Positions 1,295 to 8,806 of a stretch of 64,000 bases of DNA are shown here, piece by piece. The stretch is from an uncultured Winogradskyella sp. (GTDB lineage: Bacteria; Bacteroidota; Bacteroidia; Flavobacteriales; Flavobacteriaceae). The stretch is from assembly GCF_947498345.1 (NCBI RefSeq), contig NZ_CANMJY010000008.1, positions 62,001 through 126,000 of the forward strand, written 5' to 3'. The position numbers and the translations under genes were made by a program. Below the pieces are notes generated by a model. It was not told the origin of the DNA. It saw nothing but the letters and a program-made list of their open reading frames with translations, and did no database searches. Numbering within the stretch: the first letter of the stretch is position 1; each line of letters starts with the position of its first letter.

Positions 1295-3607
1295 TTAATC
1301 ACAGTTTCGTTCTAAAACTAAAATATCGTCTCCTCTATGTAATTCTAATCTATTTTCTTCACATTCTACAACCAACCACTCACCTGTTATAGCCTGTATA
1401 TTAGGACCTGTTACATTTGTAAAGGTCACTATAACACCATCATTAGATTGCGATGTGGTCCATGTAGCATCAATGGTTTCAGTGTCTGTATAAATAACCA
1501 CGATTTGGCTGTTTTCTTCAAAGTCAAAATTCCAATTCATCAAATTATCACTACCATTATAGTTTACAGCATTCCAAATACATTCAGTTAAATAGTCATC
1601 AACATCTTCTTCAGAACAACTGTCTCCATCACAATCTTCGACTTCGAGTTCTACTTCAAAAATCTCATAGATACTTGGATTACCTGCGAGAGAAACTCTT
1701 GCATAAATTGTTTGCTCGTACGCAATAGTATTAGTGTATGGACTTGGCAGTGCTCCTACTTCATTTTCAGCATCAGCTAAAGTCAAATAAAATGAATATT
1801 CTACATCATCATTTGGACAATCTGAAAAGATAAGATTTAAATCAAAAACACCTGTTCCGTCTTCAAAACCGTCGGCTTGATCACAAACTTCAAGTTCTGC
1901 ATCTTCAAAGCATTCAAAAGGATTTTCTTCATACTCTTGGCAAACTAATATTAACTCTCTATCACCTTGATAAAATACCATACCATCGTCATCACATTCA
2001 GACAAATACCATTGTCCATTATAATACTGATCAATAAAAGGAGTAAAATTTATAACTATAAAAATCCCATTATCATCAGAGCTAATATCCCATGTACCAT
2101 TATGAGGAAGATCTCCTTGATACATTGTAAATAGACTGTTGTCTTCAGAAAACTGGAACGTAGTTAAAGGAGAAGTGTAATCATCTACTGTAGGCACTAT
2201 ATTACAAGACAGTAAATAATCAATAACCTCTTCTTGTGTACAATTGGGTTCAATATCACATTCTTGCTCTAACTCTATGTAATTATTACCACTCATTAAA
2301 TATAATTCATCATCTTCGCACTCTATAATTTGCCACTGACCCGTTAATTCATTCAGCATTTGTTGTAAAGTCAACTCAATAAAAACATCTCCGGCAATAA
2401 GCATCAATTCATAGGTGCCTATTTGACTTTCTGTTCCATCATTATTATTTATTAAAACTTGTCCATTTGGGGTAAAATATACATGAATTGGCACAAGAGA
2501 ATCTATAAGATTAGTTTCTAGCTCCCAGGCACATTCTCCAAGAACTTCACTTATATTTGTTATAGAACATCCCAAGTCCCCTTCGCAATCTTGCTCTAAT
2601 TCGATCTCATAGTCTCCTCTAACAATTTCAATTTCGTCATCATCACATTCAACAATTAACCATTCTCCACCTAAATCTTCTTGAAATGCCGTTAGATCGA
2701 ACAAATTCAAAATTAAACCTTCAGTGGTTGAAGATAAACTCCATGCACCACCAATGGCTGATGTGGTTTCACCTTCTGTAATCGCTAAACTTCCGTCTTC
2801 ATTAAAAATAATTTGATAGGTTTCAAAATCACCGTTTTCATCCTCAATATCCCAAGGACATTCTACTAGTAAATCTTCTATATCATCTTCATTACATTGG
2901 TAATCGTCGTCGTCACAATCATCTTCTACAGCTTCAAGGGCTTGTGCTAATTCTTCGTTAGAGTTAACTTCTATGGTTTCGTCATTAGCATATACTAAAG
3001 TTACAGGATAATTTAAACTTACAATTAAGGCATTTTCATCGTCTTCTAAATCATCTATAAATTCATAAAGTGTTTGATCGTTTTCAATAGTTACAGTTTC
3101 AATAAGATTAAATTCTGAATTAAATACCGAAAATGAAATAGGATATTCAAAATCTACACATTCAATTATGTCTTCTTCCTCTTCATCCTCGCAGCCTTCT
3201 ATAAAATCTTCGAGCTGCTCTTCGTCTTCGATAACAATTTCTGTGTAATCATTAAAAATTATGGTTATTGGGAATACAAAGTCTAAAATATCTTCATCGT
3301 CCTGTATATCTTCAAACACATCTTCTAATTGTTCTAAATCTGCTTCAGTTTCAATAACAATAGTGATATCGCTTACAATAATGGTTACTGGTAATTCTAC
3401 GGAAAAACAACTAGCATCATCCAATATATCATCCATTGTACCATGGTTAGCTGTTGTTCTGCTCATTAGCTCAACTAATTCAGTACCAGATTGAATAATT
3501 TCTTGTTGCTCAGTATTATTAACTTCTAATGCTTCATCCTGACATGCTGTAAAACTTATCAGAGCAAAAATGATGAAGAGAAATACATGATTGATTTTAG
3601 TTTTCAT
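1295..3607 (-). CDS. Very acidic, disulfide-patterned repeat lipoprotein (surface, unknown function)
   Basis: 770 residues; I do not recognise the family. Residues 1-22 are a lipoprotein signal ending in FTAC. The acidic residues right after the cysteine (QDE) resemble the export signal that sends Bacteroidota lipoproteins to the cell surface. Residues about 68-238 hold four short units that each start with an aromatic-P-[VI]-[TS] strand and end in an acidic helix. Residues 238-557 hold three units of about 105 residues, and a fourth is at 664-769. Each has four cysteines (C238/250/321/341; 347/359/430/450; 456/468/538/556; 664/676/749/769), with first spacing always 12, and a GxW...EC(D/E) core. 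An SprB-adhesin-like segment (about 566-660, with NTIAYEQTIYARV) separates units 3 and 4. It is divergent from an ECF sigma gene and carries the same promoter motif as fecR. It may bind metal or act as an adhesin; a lipocalin-like fold is possible but unproven. Confidence 0.85.
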   Translation of the reverse strand: MKTKINHVFLFIIFALISFTACQDEALEVNNTEQQEIIQSGTELVELMSRTTANHGTMDDILDDASCFSVELPVTIIVSDITIVIETEADLEQLEDVFEDIQDDEDILDFVFPITIIFNDYTEIVIEDEEQLEDFIEGCEDEEEEDIIECVDFEYPISFSVFNSEFNLIETVTIENDQTLYEFIDDLEDDENALIVSLNYPVTLVYANDETIEVNSNEELAQALEAVEDDCDDDDYQCNEDDIEDLLVECPWDIEDENGDFETYQIIFNEDGSLAITEGETTSAIGGAWSLSSTTEGLILNLFDLTAFQEDLGGEWLIVECDDDEIEIVRGDYEIELEQDCEGDLGCSITNISEVLGECAWELETNLIDSLVPIHVYFTPNGQVLINNNDGTESQIGTYELMLIAGDVFIELTLQQMLNELTGQWQIIECEDDELYLMSGNNYIELEQECDIEPNCTQEEVIDYLLSCNIVPTVDDYTSPLTTFQFSEDNSLFTMYQGDLPHNGTWDISSDDNGIFIVINFTPFIDQYYNGQWYLSECDDDGMVFYQGDRELILVCQEYEENPFECFEDAELEVCDQADGFEDGTGVFDLNLIFSDCPNDDVEYSFYLTLADAENEVGALPSPYTNTIAYEQTIYARVSLAGNPSIYEIFEVELEVEDCDGDSCSEEDVDDYLTECIWNAVNYNGSDNLMNWNFDFEENSQIVVIYTDTETIDATWTTSQSNDGVIVTFTNVTGPNIQAITGEWLVVECEENRLELHRGDDILVLERNCD

Positions 3608-3632
3608 AAAATTGGAGCTTTAATTTATTATG

Positions 3633-3661
3633 TAACAGCCATAATATAAAAATCCCTACCC
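3633..3661 (-). promoter_or_regulatory. Predicted ECF-sigma promoter of the acidic lipoprotein gene
   Basis: Minus-strand GGGTAGG, one base, ATTTTTATATTAT, two bases, CTGTTA. The two end blocks are 16 bases apart, a normal -35/-10 distance. The element ends 25 bases before the lipoprotein ATG. The same 29-base arrangement, 26 positions identical, precedes fecR at 4253-4281 on the other strand. There is no TAnnTTTG box here. Confidence 0.7.
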
Positions 3662-3702
3662 TAAAATTTCAAAATATTATTTATAATTTGTGAGGCGAAA
3701 AT

Positions 3703-4218
3703 ATGAGTCAACCACTAAACAATAATATATGCCAAGAGCAACTATTTGAACGTTTTTATAAAAAACATTCAAAGAACTTGCATGACTTTTTGTACTACAA
3801 ATTTGGAGAGCATTTAAATCCACAGGATAAAGTACAAGAAGCGTTTATAAAGTTATGGCAAAATTGCGGAAAAGTTTCGGCTGATAAAGCGAAAAGCTTT
3901 TTATTTACCACGGCTAACAACCTAATGCTTAATGCCGTAGCGCACCAAAAAGTTGTTTTAAAATATCGAAAATTACCTCAAAAGCATTCTACAAACGAAT
4001 CGCCAGAATTTGTAATGCAAGAAAAAGAGTATCATCAAAAATTACAAAATGCCTTAGCCAATTTAACCGAAGCTCAACGCGTTGCTTTTTTAATGAATCG
4101 GGTAGAAGGCAAGCGATTTAAGGAAATTGCAACACTTTTAGATATTTCTACTAAGGCCGTAGAAAAACGCATTTATGGAGCGTTAAAGAAGTTAAGAGAA
4201 GAAATTGACGACATATGA
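3703..4218 (+). CDS. ECF (FecI-like) RNA polymerase sigma factor
   Basis: 171-residue group IV sigma factor. Region 2 is at about residues 10-80 (ERFYKKHSKNLHDFLYYKFG and DKVQEAFIKLWQN). Region 4 with its helix-turn-helix is at about 115-165 (LTEAQRVAFLMNRVEGKRF, then IATLLDISTKAVEKRIYGAL). It is followed 82 bases later by a FecR-type anti-sigma gene and a TonB receptor with an STN domain, the standard cell-surface signalling layout. The shared 29-base motif lies upstream of fecR and of the divergent lipoprotein but not upstream of this gene, so the sigma gene probably has a separate housekeeping promoter. Predicted function: transcribe those two units when the receptor is occupied. Confidence 0.93.
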   Translation: MSQPLNNNICQEQLFERFYKKHSKNLHDFLYYKFGEHLNPQDKVQEAFIKLWQNCGKVSADKAKSFLFTTANNLMLNAVAHQKVVLKYRKLPQKHSTNESPEFVMQEKEYHQKLQNALANLTEAQRVAFLMNRVEGKRFKEIATLLDISTKAVEKRIYGALKKLREEIDDI

Positions 4219-4252
4219 TTTGGTATACAGTTATGATATTGAATTTATAAAG

Positions 4253-4281
4253 GGGTAGGAATTTTTATATTATAACTGTTA
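4253..4281 (+). promoter_or_regulatory. Predicted ECF-sigma promoter of the fecR-receptor operon
   Basis: Plus-strand GGGTAGG, one base, ATTTTTATATTAT, two bases, CTGTTA, ending 19 bases before the fecR ATG. It matches the element at 3633-3661 at 26 of 29 positions. It lies in the 82-base gap between the sigma gene and fecR, which implies fecR and downstream genes have a promoter separate from the sigma gene. Confidence 0.7.
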
Positions 4282-4300
4282 TATATTTGAATGTACGACT

Positions 4301-5197
4301 ATGACAAGAGAAGAACTCATAAAAAAATGGTTGGATAACAACCTTAATGCTAAAGAGCAAAAAGCTTTTGGGCAACTAAAAGATTATGATGAATTAATCC
4401 TAATGAATAGTGCTTTAAAAGATTTTAAAGCTCCCGAGTTCTCTGTGGATAATAATTACGATAAATTAAAACCTAAACTTGAACGCCATATTCAAAAATC
4501 TCGCAATTGGTTAAAGCCTTTACTCAGAATTGCCGCTATTTTGGCTATATGCTTTAGTGTTTATTATTATTCAACAAGTTTAGATACAGAAATTAGCACA
4601 CAAATTGCGCAAAGTACTGAAGTTAGATTACCAGATGCCTCAACAGCACATCTTAATGCTAATTCTACCTTAAGTTTTAATGAAAAAAGCTGGGAAAATG
4701 ACCGCGAAGTATTATTAAATGGTGAGGCCTTTTTTAAGGTTGCTAAAGGTCAAAAATTTGATGTTATAACAACCAATGGAACTGTTAGTGTTTTAGGAAC
4801 TCAGTTTAATGTAAAACAACGTAATGACTACTTTGAGGTCACTTGCTATGAAGGTCTGGTTGTAGTTACACATAATGAAGAATCTGTAAAATTACATCCT
4901 GGAGATACCTTTAAAATAATAGATGGGAAATTATTTGCTACTGAAAAAGAAATCATCTCGCGACCTACATGGTTGCATGGTGAAAGCAGTTTTAAAACTG
5001 TACCACTAGTACTTGTTATCGCTGAGCTTAAAAATCAGTACGATATCGAAATATTAGCTCCAAAAATCGATACTCAGCGTTTATTTACGGGAAGTTTTAC
5101 GCACAAAAATCTGGATCTGGCATTGCAGTCTGTTACAATACCCTTAAATTTAAGCTATAGTAAATCTGGAAACTCTATTGTACTAAAGCGTGAATAA
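4301..5197 (+). CDS. FecR-type anti-sigma factor / sigma regulator
   Basis: 298 residues: a cytoplasmic N-terminal sigma-binding region (1-70), one membrane segment (about 72-91, RIAAILAICFSVYYY) and a periplasmic FecR domain (about 95-190, with VRLPDASTAHLNANSTL and VLGTQFNVK). A C-terminal STN-like DUF4974 region (about 225-298, FTGSFTHKNLDLALQSV) ends the protein. In this family the periplasmic part senses the STN domain of the TonB receptor and controls release of the sigma factor. The receptor gene overlaps its 3' end by 8 bases, so the two are translationally linked. Expression is predicted from the ECF-type motif just upstream. Confidence 0.93.
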   Translation: MTREELIKKWLDNNLNAKEQKAFGQLKDYDELILMNSALKDFKAPEFSVDNNYDKLKPKLERHIQKSRNWLKPLLRIAAILAICFSVYYYSTSLDTEISTQIAQSTEVRLPDASTAHLNANSTLSFNEKSWENDREVLLNGEAFFKVAKGQKFDVITTNGTVSVLGTQFNVKQRNDYFEVTCYEGLVVVTHNEESVKLHPGDTFKIIDGKLFATEKEIISRPTWLHGESSFKTVPLVLVIAELKNQYDIEILAPKIDTQRLFTGSFTHKNLDLALQSVTIPLNLSYSKSGNSIVLKRE

Positions 5198-7496
5198 ACG
5201 GTTACAACGTGTTATTTTATATGTTTTTATTATTGCCTCTTGTGGTCTAGCTCATAGTCAAAATGATGAGGAACCGCAACCACTTGTCCAAATTCTTAAC
5301 CAGTTAGAAAAACGCTACAATGTAAAGTTCTCTTACGAAAACAAAACTATTGAAGGCATTTTAGTATCACCTTTATATCCAGAACTTTCTCTAGAACAAG
5401 CATTAAATCAACTTCGCCTAATAACTCCATTAGATTTTAATGTTCTTAGTAGTCGATTTATAGCTATATCTCCAAAAGATAATACTATTGAGCGCTTAGA
5501 AGAAGTTGTGGTAACTAACTACCTTACAAAAGGTATTTCCAAAACTAATAATGGTGCTGTAGAGGTAGATAGTAAAGCTTTTACTATGCTACCTGGTTTA
5601 ATAGAACCCGATGTGCTACAGATTATACAAAGTTTACCTGGTATTATTAGTGTAGACGAGCTGATTTCTAACATTAATGTTAGAGGTGGTACAAATGATC
5701 AAAACCTTGTCATCTATGAAGGGATTAGAATGTATCAAACTGGTCATTTTTTTGGTTTAATTTCTGCATTTAACCCATATTTAACTGATGAAGTACGCAT
5801 TTCAAAAAACGGCACTAGTGCTTTATTTGGCAATGGTGTTTCTAGTACTATCGCTATTAAAAACACGAATAAAACAAGTAATACATACGATGCAGGTTTG
5901 GGTACTAATCTTTTGAGTATAGATGGTTATGCAAAAATTCCCTTGAGTAAAAAAACAGAGCTACAAATATCAGCCAGACGCTCATTTACAGATGTTTTTG
6001 CTTCTACCACATATGATGCATATTTCGATAGAATTTTTACAGACTCTGAGCTTAGTACATCAAATAATATTGATACCGTTTTAAGTTTAGATGAACGTTT
6101 TCTATTTTATGATTTTACAGCAAAATTTTTATACAATATTAATAAAACATCTTCATTACGAATCAACCTGCTCAATATTTATAACAGCTTAGATTACAAT
6201 CAAATATTCACCAATACTAGCAATAACTTTCAAGAAACTAAAAGCACGTTAAATCAGGTGAGTTATGGAGCAAGTGCTACGTATTCCAAAAAATTTAAAG
6301 ATGGTATAAATACTTCTGCGCAAATTTATTATTCAAATTACGATTTAGATGCCCAGAATAATGATCTTACGAATCAGCAACTTTTAGTTCAAGAAAACAA
6401 AGTAGAAGATTACGGGCTTCGACTAGATATTTCTAAAATTATTGACAATAATATCGAATTAAGAGGTGGTTATCAATTTAACGAGGTAGGTGTTACAAAT
6501 TTTGAAGATGTCACCAATCCAAATTTTACAAGTTTAATAAAAGAGATTAATAGAACACATGCTTTTTTTGGTGAGACTGAGCGTTATTCAAAATCACGCA
6601 ATACCTATATTAGGTTAGGTGCAAGAATCAGTTATTTTGAAAAACTTAAAGAACTTGTTATTGAGCCTCGTTTTGCTTTTAATCAAAAAATTTCGGATCA
6701 TATTAGGTTAGAAGTCTTGGGCGAACTAAAGAGTCAATCTATATCTCAAGTTATTGATCTACAGCAGGATTTTTTTGGAATTGAAAAAAGGCGTTGGCTA
6801 TTGTCTAATACTACAGACGTGCCATTAGTTAAGAGTCAGCAGATATCGCTTGGTGTAAGCTACAATCAGAATAATTTACTGGTTTCACTTGAAGGCTATT
6901 ACAAAAATGTTGATGATATTAACGCTCGCAGTCAGGGATTTCAAAACCAATTTCAGTTTGCAAACGACATTGGGTCTTACACCATAACTGGCCTCGATTT
7001 TCTTATCAATAAACGCTTTAATAATTTTAGCACCTGGTTAAGCTACACCTTAAGTAATAACGATTATAAATTTGACAACTTAAACGATGGAGAGGCTTTT
7101 CCTAGTACTTTGGATTTAACGCATGTTGCAAATGCATCGTTAACTTATAATTTAGATAACTTTAAAATTGGTCTTGGTATTAACTGGCATTCCGGACGAC
7201 CCTATACGCAACCGTCCCAAATTCAAAATAATGCAAATTCTACCATAGAGTATAATTCACCTAATAGTTCTAGACTCAACGACTATTTTAGAACAGATAT
7301 CTCAGCTGTTTATAATTTCTATCTATCAAAAGGAAAAGGGACAAAAGCAGAGGTTGGCGCTTCTGCATGGAATATCTTTAACCAAAATAACATTATTAAC
7401 CGTTATTATTTACTAAATTCTGAAGGTAATATTGTTGAGATTAACAACCAATCCTTAAAATTTACACCCAACTTAAGTTTTAGAGTCAATTTTTAG
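5190..7496 (+). CDS. TonB-dependent outer-membrane receptor with STN signalling domain
   Basis: 768 residues starting with GTG inside the end of fecR; no closer in-frame ATG exists before residue 100, so the GTG start is probably real. A signal peptide ends near AHSQ. The STN (secretin/TonB N-terminal) domain covers about 27-95, followed by a TonB-box-like EEVVVTNYL. The plug is at about 110-225 (SLPGIISVDELISNINVRGG), then a 22-strand barrel ending in RVNF. This is a transducer-type receptor that both imports and signals via FecR. It has no CarboxypepD_reg domain and no SusD partner nearby, so a polysaccharide-utilisation role is unlikely. The ligand is unknown. Confidence 0.92.
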   Translation: MNKRLQRVILYVFIIASCGLAHSQNDEEPQPLVQILNQLEKRYNVKFSYENKTIEGILVSPLYPELSLEQALNQLRLITPLDFNVLSSRFIAISPKDNTIERLEEVVVTNYLTKGISKTNNGAVEVDSKAFTMLPGLIEPDVLQIIQSLPGIISVDELISNINVRGGTNDQNLVIYEGIRMYQTGHFFGLISAFNPYLTDEVRISKNGTSALFGNGVSSTIAIKNTNKTSNTYDAGLGTNLLSIDGYAKIPLSKKTELQISARRSFTDVFASTTYDAYFDRIFTDSELSTSNNIDTVLSLDERFLFYDFTAKFLYNINKTSSLRINLLNIYNSLDYNQIFTNTSNNFQETKSTLNQVSYGASATYSKKFKDGINTSAQIYYSNYDLDAQNNDLTNQQLLVQENKVEDYGLRLDISKIIDNNIELRGGYQFNEVGVTNFEDVTNPNFTSLIKEINRTHAFFGETERYSKSRNTYIRLGARISYFEKLKELVIEPRFAFNQKISDHIRLEVLGELKSQSISQVIDLQQDFFGIEKRRWLLSNTTDVPLVKSQQISLGVSYNQNNLLVSLEGYYKNVDDINARSQGFQNQFQFANDIGSYTITGLDFLINKRFNNFSTWLSYTLSNNDYKFDNLNDGEAFPSTLDLTHVANASLTYNLDNFKIGLGINWHSGRPYTQPSQIQNNANSTIEYNSPNSSRLNDYFRTDISAVYNFYLSKGKGTKAEVGASAWNIFNQNNIINRYYLLNSEGNIVEINNQSLKFTPNLSFRVNF

Positions 7497-7528: not shown

Positions 7529-8806
7529 ATGCAAAATTTTAACTATTTAAGACTTTCCATTTGTTCTGTGTTACTCTTTACATTTTATACAGCTAAGGCA
7601 CAAATGGCTAATGCAGATGAAAAGAAATCAATATTTTTCATTCCCGAAATACTCATTGGAAAAACCTTAGAAGCCAATACAGGCTTCCCAGAAACTGAGC
7701 TTCAAAAAAACCTGTTTTTTAGTATTGGTAAATACAATTTTAACCCAAATAAAGAATGGGCTGCAAGATTAAGCTACCCAAAGACTGGTATATCATTAGG
7801 GTATACAGATTTTGGCAATACAGATAAGATTGGAAGAGCATATACCATAATGCCTTTTATGGAAGTAAGTATTTTAAGGAAGTATATATCTGGTTTAAAT
7901 TTACAAATAGGTATTGGCGGATCTTATACAGATACTCAATACAATATAAACACCAATCCTTTAAACCGCGCAATAACCACAAAACTCAATTGGTCTTTTC
8001 GATCTTTTTTATATTATGATATTTTTAAATCTAGAAAAACAGATTGGAGATTTGGATTGGGTTATCTACATCACTCAAACGGTCATACAAATTTACCTAA
8101 TCAAGGATTAAATTCGTTGGCTGCCAGTTTCTCTGCAAAGATTGATAATAAGATCATTGAAAAGACTAAGCTAAAAAAACCTGCGTTTTCATCAAAATCG
8201 CAATATTACCTTTCGTTTAGATTAGGATTAGGTCAAAACGTTTTATCAGAAAAATTCAACTCAAAAAAAGAAGTGTATACTTTTTCAGCATCTGCAGGAA
8301 AAATAATAAACAATACCTTTAAAATCGGTGCTGGTTTTTATTACCGTTTTTATGAGCATTATTATGATTATATAAAAGGAAATAAAGCATTGGTTGCTGA
8401 ACAGTACCCACACTTTGCAGATAATCCTTATGGCTATGCAACAAATTTTGGATTATTTGCATCATCCGAATTATTGATGGATCATTTTGGTTTTGAATTC
8501 GATATCGGGCTTAATATATACAAACCATTCTATAAAATAGATTGGCAACTCAATCAAGGCTTTTCTTATGAAAATGGAAATGGTGAAACTGTTGATGTTT
8601 TAGGCGAATTAGACTGGTATTACGAAATAAAGAGAACCATTTCGGCAAGAATGGGCTTAAAATATTACCTATGGACAACAAATAAAGCTCCTAAGCATAA
8701 TATTTTTTTAGGAGCACATATAAACGCAAACCTTGGTCAAGCTGACTTTACCGAATTAAGTATTGGCTATGTATATCGCTTTAATTTAAAAATAAAAGAC
8801 AATTGA
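7529..8806 (+). CDS. PagL-like acyloxyacyl hydrolase family outer-membrane protein
   Basis: 425 residues with a signal peptide ending near AKAQ and many amphipathic strands. The stretch LHHSNGHTNLPNQGLNSL (about 180-197) matches the PagL lipid A 3-O-deacylase motif HxSN....PNxGx. By eye, PagL His126 and Ser128 correspond to His181 and Ser183, but the position of PagL Glu140 is Asn195. The protein is also more than twice the length of PagL (about 150 residues), with an added C-terminal barrel-like half. It sits 32 bases after the TonB receptor in the same predicted operon. It may modify lipid A, or bind lipid without catalysis. Confidence 0.75.
   Translation: MQNFNYLRLSICSVLLFTFYTAKAQMANADEKKSIFFIPEILIGKTLEANTGFPETELQKNLFFSIGKYNFNPNKEWAARLSYPKTGISLGYTDFGNTDKIGRAYTIMPFMEVSILRKYISGLNLQIGIGGSYTDTQYNINTNPLNRAITTKLNWSFRSFLYYDIFKSRKTDWRFGLGYLHHSNGHTNLPNQGLNSLAASFSAKIDNKIIEKTKLKKPAFSSKSQYYLSFRLGLGQNVLSEKFNSKKEVYTFSASAGKIINNTFKIGAGFYYRFYEHYYDYIKGNKALVAEQYPHFADNPYGYATNFGLFASSELLMDHFGFEFDIGLNIYKPFYKIDWQLNQGFSYENGNGETVDVLGELDWYYEIKRTISARMGLKYYLWTTNKAPKHNIFLGAHINANLGQADFTELSIGYVYRFNLKIKDN

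Follow-up and report, generated by a model that had tools for sequence, protein, structure and literature searches.

An element repeated on both sides of an ECF sigma factor gene in Winogradskyella is very probably the promoter recognised by that sigma factor

The question raised by this locus is whether two nearly identical, oppositely oriented stretches of DNA, which lie upstream of a lipoprotein gene and of a fecR gene and which bracket a gene for an ECF sigma factor, are promoters recognised by the sigma factor encoded between them. The window, meaning the whole stretch of 64,000 nucleotides that was analysed, comes from an uncultured Winogradskyella species, and its closest named relatives are likewise Winogradskyella, the nearest being W. 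luteola WHY3 with 81% identity in the lipoprotein (locus L174). The features on which the argument depends are the following.

1295–3607, minus strand: acidic lipoprotein, 770 aa, lipobox cysteine Cys22, divergent from the sigma gene
3633–3661, minus strand: putative ECF promoter element of the lipoprotein gene, GGGTAGGGATTTTTATATTATGGCTGTTA, with a GTAGG-N16-CTGTT core at 3634–3659
3682–3690, plus strand: near-housekeeping -7 box of the sigma gene, TATAATTTG (TA-n3-TTTG)
3703–4218, plus strand: ECF sigma factor, 171 aa, with K155 in the region-4 recognition helix and M75 in region 2
4253–4281, plus strand: putative ECF promoter element of fecR and the receptor gene, GGGTAGGAATTTTTATATTATAACTGTTA, with a GTAGG-N16-CTGTT core at 4255–4280
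4282–4289, plus strand: TATATTTG, a match to the housekeeping TAnnTTTG box directly behind the fecR element; not conserved
4301–5197, plus strand: FecR-type anti-sigma factor, 298 aa (PF04773, E 8.5e-19)
5190–7496, plus strand: TonB-dependent receptor with an N-terminal FecR_C/STN-like signalling domain (FecR_C, Plug, barrel)

The module and its paired element

The sigma factor consists of regions 2 and 4 only, as is characteristic of the ECF type, with Sigma70_r2 at 18–82 and Sigma70_r4_2 at 112–164 both above their cut-offs. It also exceeds the NCBIfam sigma70-ECF cut-off; its best NCBIfam match, TIGR02985 (Bacteroidetes sigma-70 factor 1), reaches 105.5 bits against a cut-off of 126.4, so the protein is not assigned to that family. 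Two features agree with a system of the FecI/FecR/FecA type: fecR adjoins the sigma gene, an adjacency which is conserved, and the TonB-dependent receptor carries an N-terminal signalling domain. FecR_C falls just under the cut-off in the FecR protein itself; in the receptor, FecR_C (30–85) and Plug lie above their cut-offs and the barrel just under. The receptor model (pLDDT 83.5) has an alpha/beta N-terminal domain followed by a barrel, and its PDB matches include the siderophore receptors PfeA, FpvA, FoxA and FecA. Both the FecR domain and the STN-like domain of the receptor are consistent with signalling at the cell surface. About 30 nt behind the receptor gene lies a PagL-like gene (PF09411; window 7529–8806, plus strand), which may share its operon.

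At E 0.001 the lipoprotein has no match in Pfam or NCBIfam, and even its weak Pfam matches do not include SusD, which leaves it outside the SusD family. The lipobox cysteine, Cys22, is conserved without exception across 48 sequences. The structural model shows N-terminal beta-beta-alpha repeats and then several small beta-barrel (lipocalin-like) domains; its domain arrangement is not reliable, because pTM is only 0.31 (pLDDT 76.7). Single domains match the Bacteroides proteins 5byp, 4zgf and 4qrl, the last described as lipocalin-like, with probability 1.0, E about 0.01–0.02 and target TM 0.52–0.59. The top Foldseek matches of the whole model were dismissed as chance-like (TM about 0.1), and none of the remaining family matches is significant: PB1 (best E 0.053, 5 of 21 members), E1_UFD (E 0.48), an unrelated lid domain which gave the lowest Pfam E value of all (0.0086), and one PDB sequence match (E 0.4). 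A relative of the lipoprotein is also encoded on a contig labelled as a Rhizobium sp. MAG (L233), perhaps as a result of binning contamination.

Direct comparison of the two element copies confirmed what a first-pass annotation, made from the letters alone, had reported of them: 26 of 29 positions are identical between minus-strand 3633–3661 and plus-strand 4253–4281, the copies end 25 nt (lipoprotein) and 19 nt (fecR) before the respective ATGs, and the end blocks of both are 16 apart. When the best 29-mer match between the two upstream regions was scored in 2,000 order-1 Markov trials, the maximum was 24 matches and 26 was never reached. The 29-mer pattern, with at most three mismatches and the three differing positions left open, occurs in the 3.81-Mb genome only at the two element sites; the count of the shorter pattern GTAGG-N16-YTGTT in this one genome is uninformative, at 11 matches vs 16 for the reversed control. 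Four of the 11 are the sites before the lipoprotein gene, fecR and two further genes described below (a 153-aa protein and R1), five others overlap open frames, and two lie outside open frames.

Conservation and covariation with the sigma factor

A lack of conservation at orthologous loci had been named beforehand as one observation that would refute the proposal, and the opposite was found. Among 60 Winogradskyella genomes searched, a subset of a larger group, 58 contain a FecR relative and 54 contain an orthologous fecR, called at E below 1e-90; it is absent from G006, G012, G026, G038, G043 and G053. The gene order, with the lipoprotein gene divergent from sigma-fecR-receptor, is constant in the 54 genomes where contig ends allow it to be read, except in G037, in which no lipoprotein gene was recognised in the stretch fetched around the module. 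The module is split between contigs in G011 and G056, and in G031 the lipoprotein and the receptor are each read as two pieces. The element is kept throughout: GTAGG-N16-[A/C/T]TGTT precedes fecR at all 54 orthologous loci and the lipoprotein gene at all 53, compared to 5 of 10,700 shuffled regions. These counts include a widening of the -10 block to ATGTT which was made after the misses had been inspected; the initial pattern, GTAGG-N14 to 17-[C/T]TGTT, matched 50 of 54 fecR and 50 of 53 lipoprotein promoters, and the misses were all ATGTT. A T-rich stretch behind the -35 block and TAT(A) behind the -10 block are also conserved. With the element before fecR in every ortholog and the receptor gene next, the receptor can be placed behind a sigma-specific promoter, by comparison only.

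The statement that the sigma gene lacks the element holds at all of these loci: none of the 54 regions upstream on the sigma gene's own strand contains it. In 36 of 54 loci a box of the form TA-n2/3-TTTG is found in the 60 nt that directly precede the sigma gene; the strict TAnnTTTG form occurs in that interval in none of the 54. The related claim that neither element-bearing promoter has a TAnnTTTG box was wrong for fecR in the window, where TATATTTG occupies 4282–4289; the box is not conserved, being present in 3 of 54 fecR promoters, 0 of 53 lipoprotein promoters and 0 of 26 promoters of the 153-aa gene. At one locus (L098, in G033) about 1.5 kb separate the sigma gene from fecR, far more than elsewhere, perhaps through an insertion.

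The length of 29 bp, by which the element had originally been defined, does not survive as a functional unit. What is conserved is GTAGG-N16-[C/T/A]TGTT; over 51 loci the two spacers share 7.63 of 16 positions within a locus vs 7.64 of 16 between loci (permutation p 0.53), and because the spacer is no more shared within than between loci, the extended identity of the window species is not a functional unit, and spacer similarity is rejected as a third determinant of specificity. Close agreement between the two copies is found in the window species (13 of 16 spacer positions), G054 (13 of 16) and G009 (15 of 16).

The genome of the window contains three more lipoprotein-sigma-FecR-receptor modules, and 60 further paralogous loci were fetched from the genus, of which L144 is cut before the sigma gene. 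The resulting 116 sigma proteins form four single-linkage clusters, of which cluster 1 was divided by its fecR-side element, to give five groups. The patterns for the paralogues, and those which lack GTAGG, were composed after inspection.

Group A (the window's group): GTAGG-N16-YTGTT; own type at both promoters in 50 of 51 loci
Group B1: AG[G/T]AG-N14-TTGTTAT; 16 of 19
Group B2: GGGA[C/T]-N14-TTGTT; 20 of 21
Group C: GTAGG-N16-TTGT[C/A]; 10 of 12
Group D: [G/A]TAGGG with -10 GTC; 8 of 9

Both promoters thus carry the type of their own group in 104 of the 112 loci for which both upstream regions are available, and in 8 they do not. The sole miss in group A (L099) has its site beyond the scanned length, where a separate genus-wide scan found it; on the fecR side two C loci carry TTGTT, and in one D locus the element before the lipoprotein gene resembles type C. 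Since GTAGGAG includes AGGAG, the B1 pattern picks up 10 fecR and 5 lipoprotein regions from group A as well. The strict C pattern is found in the window's genome only at the C module itself. Besides its ordinary module, G014 has a diverged second one (L366, on G014:C78), whose lipoprotein is short and whose two promoters both have A-like elements.

Certain residues of the sigma factor follow the element type. Within the genus, all 75 sigma proteins of groups A, C and D have K at residue 155, which lies in the region-4 recognition helix; all 19 of B1 have Y there and all 22 of B2 have H. R133/K133 divide the groups in the same way without exception, and S149/T149 do so with a single exception in each direction. 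At position 75, M is found in 52 of 54 proteins of A, 15 of 19 of B1 and all 22 of B2, and F in all 21 of C and D. Group A is slightly closer to C and D (0.54, 0.53) than to B1 and B2 (0.51, 0.49) in region 4, and closer to B1 and B2 (0.63, 0.60) than to C and D (0.45, 0.51) in region 2, which is in line with a -35 block shared with C and D and a -10 block shared with B1 and B2.

The residue rule was derived within the genus and checked on 47 loci from outside the named genus which had not been used for its derivation. When 296 genomes of the order were searched for FecR, 122 gave matches, from 41 of 86 genera; paralogues are among these matches because E values up to 0.001 were accepted. The whole module is present in 45 of 49 non-genus loci with a FecR match, in genera that include Meridianimaribacter, Gaetbulibacter, Pontimicrobium, Mesoflavibacter, Croceivirga and Flavobacterium; six loci without such a match (L208, L228, L230, L233, L238, L244) were left out, and near duplicates reduce the 49 to 44 distinct fecR elements. 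Both promoters have the same type of element in 41 of the 45 complete modules, 34 with GTAGG and 7 with another -35 sequence, such sequences being used by three Dokdonia and four Aquimarina loci; in the rest no site was found before fecR (L242) or before the lipoprotein gene (L227, L250, L258). K155/R133/S149 accompany GTAGG in 39 of 39 non-genus loci, and Y or N155/K133/T149 accompany the other -35 sequences in 7 of 7; L242 has K155 but no site before fecR. Of the 5 loci whose -10 block is GTC, 4 have F75; of the 41 with GTT, none has it. The covariation of sigma residues with the element provides strong support for recognition, not proof, as it is confounded by shared ancestry and by the linkage of the module's genes.

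Sites beyond the module

The first-pass annotation had proposed a regulon that contains a protein without known function. The lipoprotein, with no recognised family, does have its place among the element-bearing genes, and the set is larger than the two promoters of the module. For a strict pattern, GTAGGR-N15-YTGTT-N-TAT, the 54 module-bearing genomes give 201 matches vs 12 when it is reversed, and the six module-less genomes give 0 vs 1. No more than 107 of the 201 can belong to the module, whose sites served to define the pattern, so that 94 or more are situated elsewhere. Two of the four sites in the window's own genome (those of the lipoprotein gene and R1) are not matched by it.

One of the additional genes, present in 53 genomes, encodes an exported protein of 153 aa; in the window's genome it sits beyond the window, at a distance of about 62 kb from the module (G000:C8:3371-3829:-, site C8:3931-3956:-). 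The element is present about 90–100 nt upstream of it in 26 of 32 loci examined. It is missing in four of four module-less genomes examined and in two of 28 module-bearing loci, namely G050, where the site is one base off (CTAGG), and G023 (Fisher p 4e-4, not corrected for ancestry); the module-less genomes fall in at least three places of the gene tree. Three of these four genomes keep part of the leader behind the promoter, and G026 keeps the GTAGG block without TGTT. The leader of about 90–100 nt (L303–L334) is conserved in length and sequence, with AAAACCGTTAAAATG... and AATTTTCTTAATTTTCGAAA, partly even where the ECF element is gone, and might contain a second promoter or a structured leader.

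R1 is a lipoprotein with a CarboxypepD_reg domain, whose gene in the window's genome (C6:93107-94351:+) has a site 39 nt upstream. With one copy taken per genome, in 30 of the 44 genomes with a match, the element is found before R1 in 25 of 30 loci, the exceptions being G010, G057, G003, G029 and G047. There are two neighbouring copies of R1 in the window's genome (G000:C6:93107-96289), and the element precedes the first.

Forty further regions were fetched, covering 41 of at least about 52 strict sites away from the module and the 153-aa gene. Their sites lie before R1 (15), R3 (8), R2 (5), R4, R5 and R6 (two each) and five single genes, and one region holds both promoters of the diverged second module of G014. 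Most of the genes encode lipoproteins or exported proteins, as judged by eye; L365 does not. R3 (L405–L434), a lipoprotein with CHNQ and CAHCH segments, is preceded in several species by GTAGGG...TGTCTTA-type elements; it was not counted in the regulon, as many R3 sites have the TGTC form and one is retained in a module-less genome, and a paralogous sigma factor may control it instead.

Interpretation, alternatives and significance

These comparisons argue strongly that the ECF sigma factor whose gene lies between the two copies of the element recognises it as its promoter, as part of a cell-surface signalling system of marine bacteria. The original judgement that it is very likely the sigma's recognition sequence is upheld by the conservation of both sites (54 of 54 and 53 of 53), by the pairing of element and sigma type, and by the absence of strict sites from the six module-less genomes. 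The -35 block would be GTAGG, extended to GTAGGR and a T-rich stretch, and the -10 block [C/T]TGTT followed by nTATA. The sigma gene itself would be transcribed from the near-housekeeping promoter, and its product, by analogy with known FecI/FecR systems, would be held by FecR until a signal at the TonB-dependent receptor, passed through the STN-like domain to FecR, sets it free. The freed sigma factor would then transcribe the lipoprotein gene, fecR and the receptor gene, in a feedback, together with the genes for the 153-aa exported protein and the CarboxypepD_reg lipoprotein and, in some species, further surface-protein genes. Because the anti-sigma gene lies behind the ECF promoter, feedback would be negative through FecR and positive through the receptor. 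The divergent lipoprotein is favoured as a candidate surface partner or ligand-capture protein of the receptor.

The element could instead be the binding site of a separate transcription factor which activates or represses housekeeping promoters, and TATATTTG directly behind the fecR element of the window species and the AT-rich tails behind both elements could be taken in that sense. Such a factor is nevertheless quite unlikely, given how rarely TAnnTTTG accompanies the element (3 of 54 fecR, 0 of 53 lipoprotein and 0 of 26 153-aa promoters); two blocks with a 16-nt spacer that covary with residues of regions 4 and 2 fit a sigma factor, and the four recurring genes of the module include no other regulator gene. 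A more specific competitor is a different ECF sigma factor of the same genome, with the local one acting elsewhere, to which the three additional sigma-FecR modules, the -35 GTAGG common to groups A, C and D, and the mixed site types of R3 lend some plausibility. It is rendered very unlikely by the 104 of 112 loci in which modules have their own paired type, by the restriction of the strict C-type pattern in this genome to its own module, and by the absence of strict A sites from the six genomes without the module, even though FecR paralogues remain in G012, G038, G043 and G053.

That the two copies are the product of a recent inverted duplication or gene conversion and have no regulatory meaning is hardly credible. 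The spacer agreement of 13, 13 and 15 of 16 positions in the window species, G054 and G009 is what such an event would leave, but over 51 loci the blocks are kept while the spacers are no more alike within loci than between them (p 0.53), so that duplication explains at most the spacer identity of a few species.

The promoter sequence of FecI differs from the element described here. The module resembles FecI-FecR-FecA of E. coli in its ECF sigma factor, its FecR anti-sigma factor and its TonB receptor with a signalling domain, and also in a sigma gene which is not under an ECF promoter: in E. coli, according to PMC9249621, FecI is active at the fecA promoter, and fecIR depends on sigma-70 for its transcription and is not autoregulated. 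Unlike in the E. coli system, the ECF element here precedes the anti-sigma gene, a divergent lipoprotein gene and distant surface-protein genes. SusCD-type pairs combine a TonB receptor with a co-regulated outer-membrane lipoprotein, and a receptor and a lipoprotein are paired here too; this lipoprotein, unlike that of SusCD, has no SusD match, and its gene points away from the receptor gene instead of lying downstream of it.

In Flavobacterium psychrophilum, the SM6 promoters are a putative ECF class from the Flavobacteriaceae with a CGT -10 box, linked to T9SS genes and with one sigma/anti-sigma pair suggested as regulator; that promoter map leaves open which share the seven ECF sigma factors have in sigma-promoter pairing (PMC9723704). 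Paralogue group D, with -10 GTC, is comparable to SM6, and the window's group differs (TGTT). The Dma/Das system of Bacteroides thetaiotaomicron is, according to PMC13088901, likewise a Bacteroidota sigma factor with a membrane anti-sigma factor that affects envelope proteins; the Dma anti-sigma factor spans both membranes, in contrast to the FecR-type anti-sigma factor and adjacent TonB receptor found here. According to PMC7366714, as of 2020 none of the alternative ECF sigma factors of B. thetaiotaomicron had a known recognition motif, EcfO of B. fragilis being the known case. ECF cell-surface signalling is a known kind of system; no description of this module anatomy or promoter was found in the open-licence literature on ECF/FecR systems or promoters in Bacteroidetes/Bacteroidota, Flavobacteria or Winogradskyella, as far as titles and the starts of abstracts among the matches listed extend.

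The comparison matches a sigma factor, its promoter and its target genes, together with candidate specificity residues, and the pairing is therefore testable by swaps of single residues and single blocks; in addition, orphan surface lipoproteins are assigned to a named signalling system. A wider reading, which taken jointly might about equally well hold or fail, is that the Flavobacteriaceae maintain parallel four-gene surface-sensing modules, several per genome, insulated from each other by a simple sigma-promoter code. In this code residue 155 would set the -35 block (K for GTAGG, Y or N for AGGA-type, H for GGGAC) and residue 75 would help to set the -10 block (F for GTC, otherwise mostly GTT), the two specificities evolving separately, and each module would drive one orphan surface lipoprotein of its own, along with a small regulon of the envelope.
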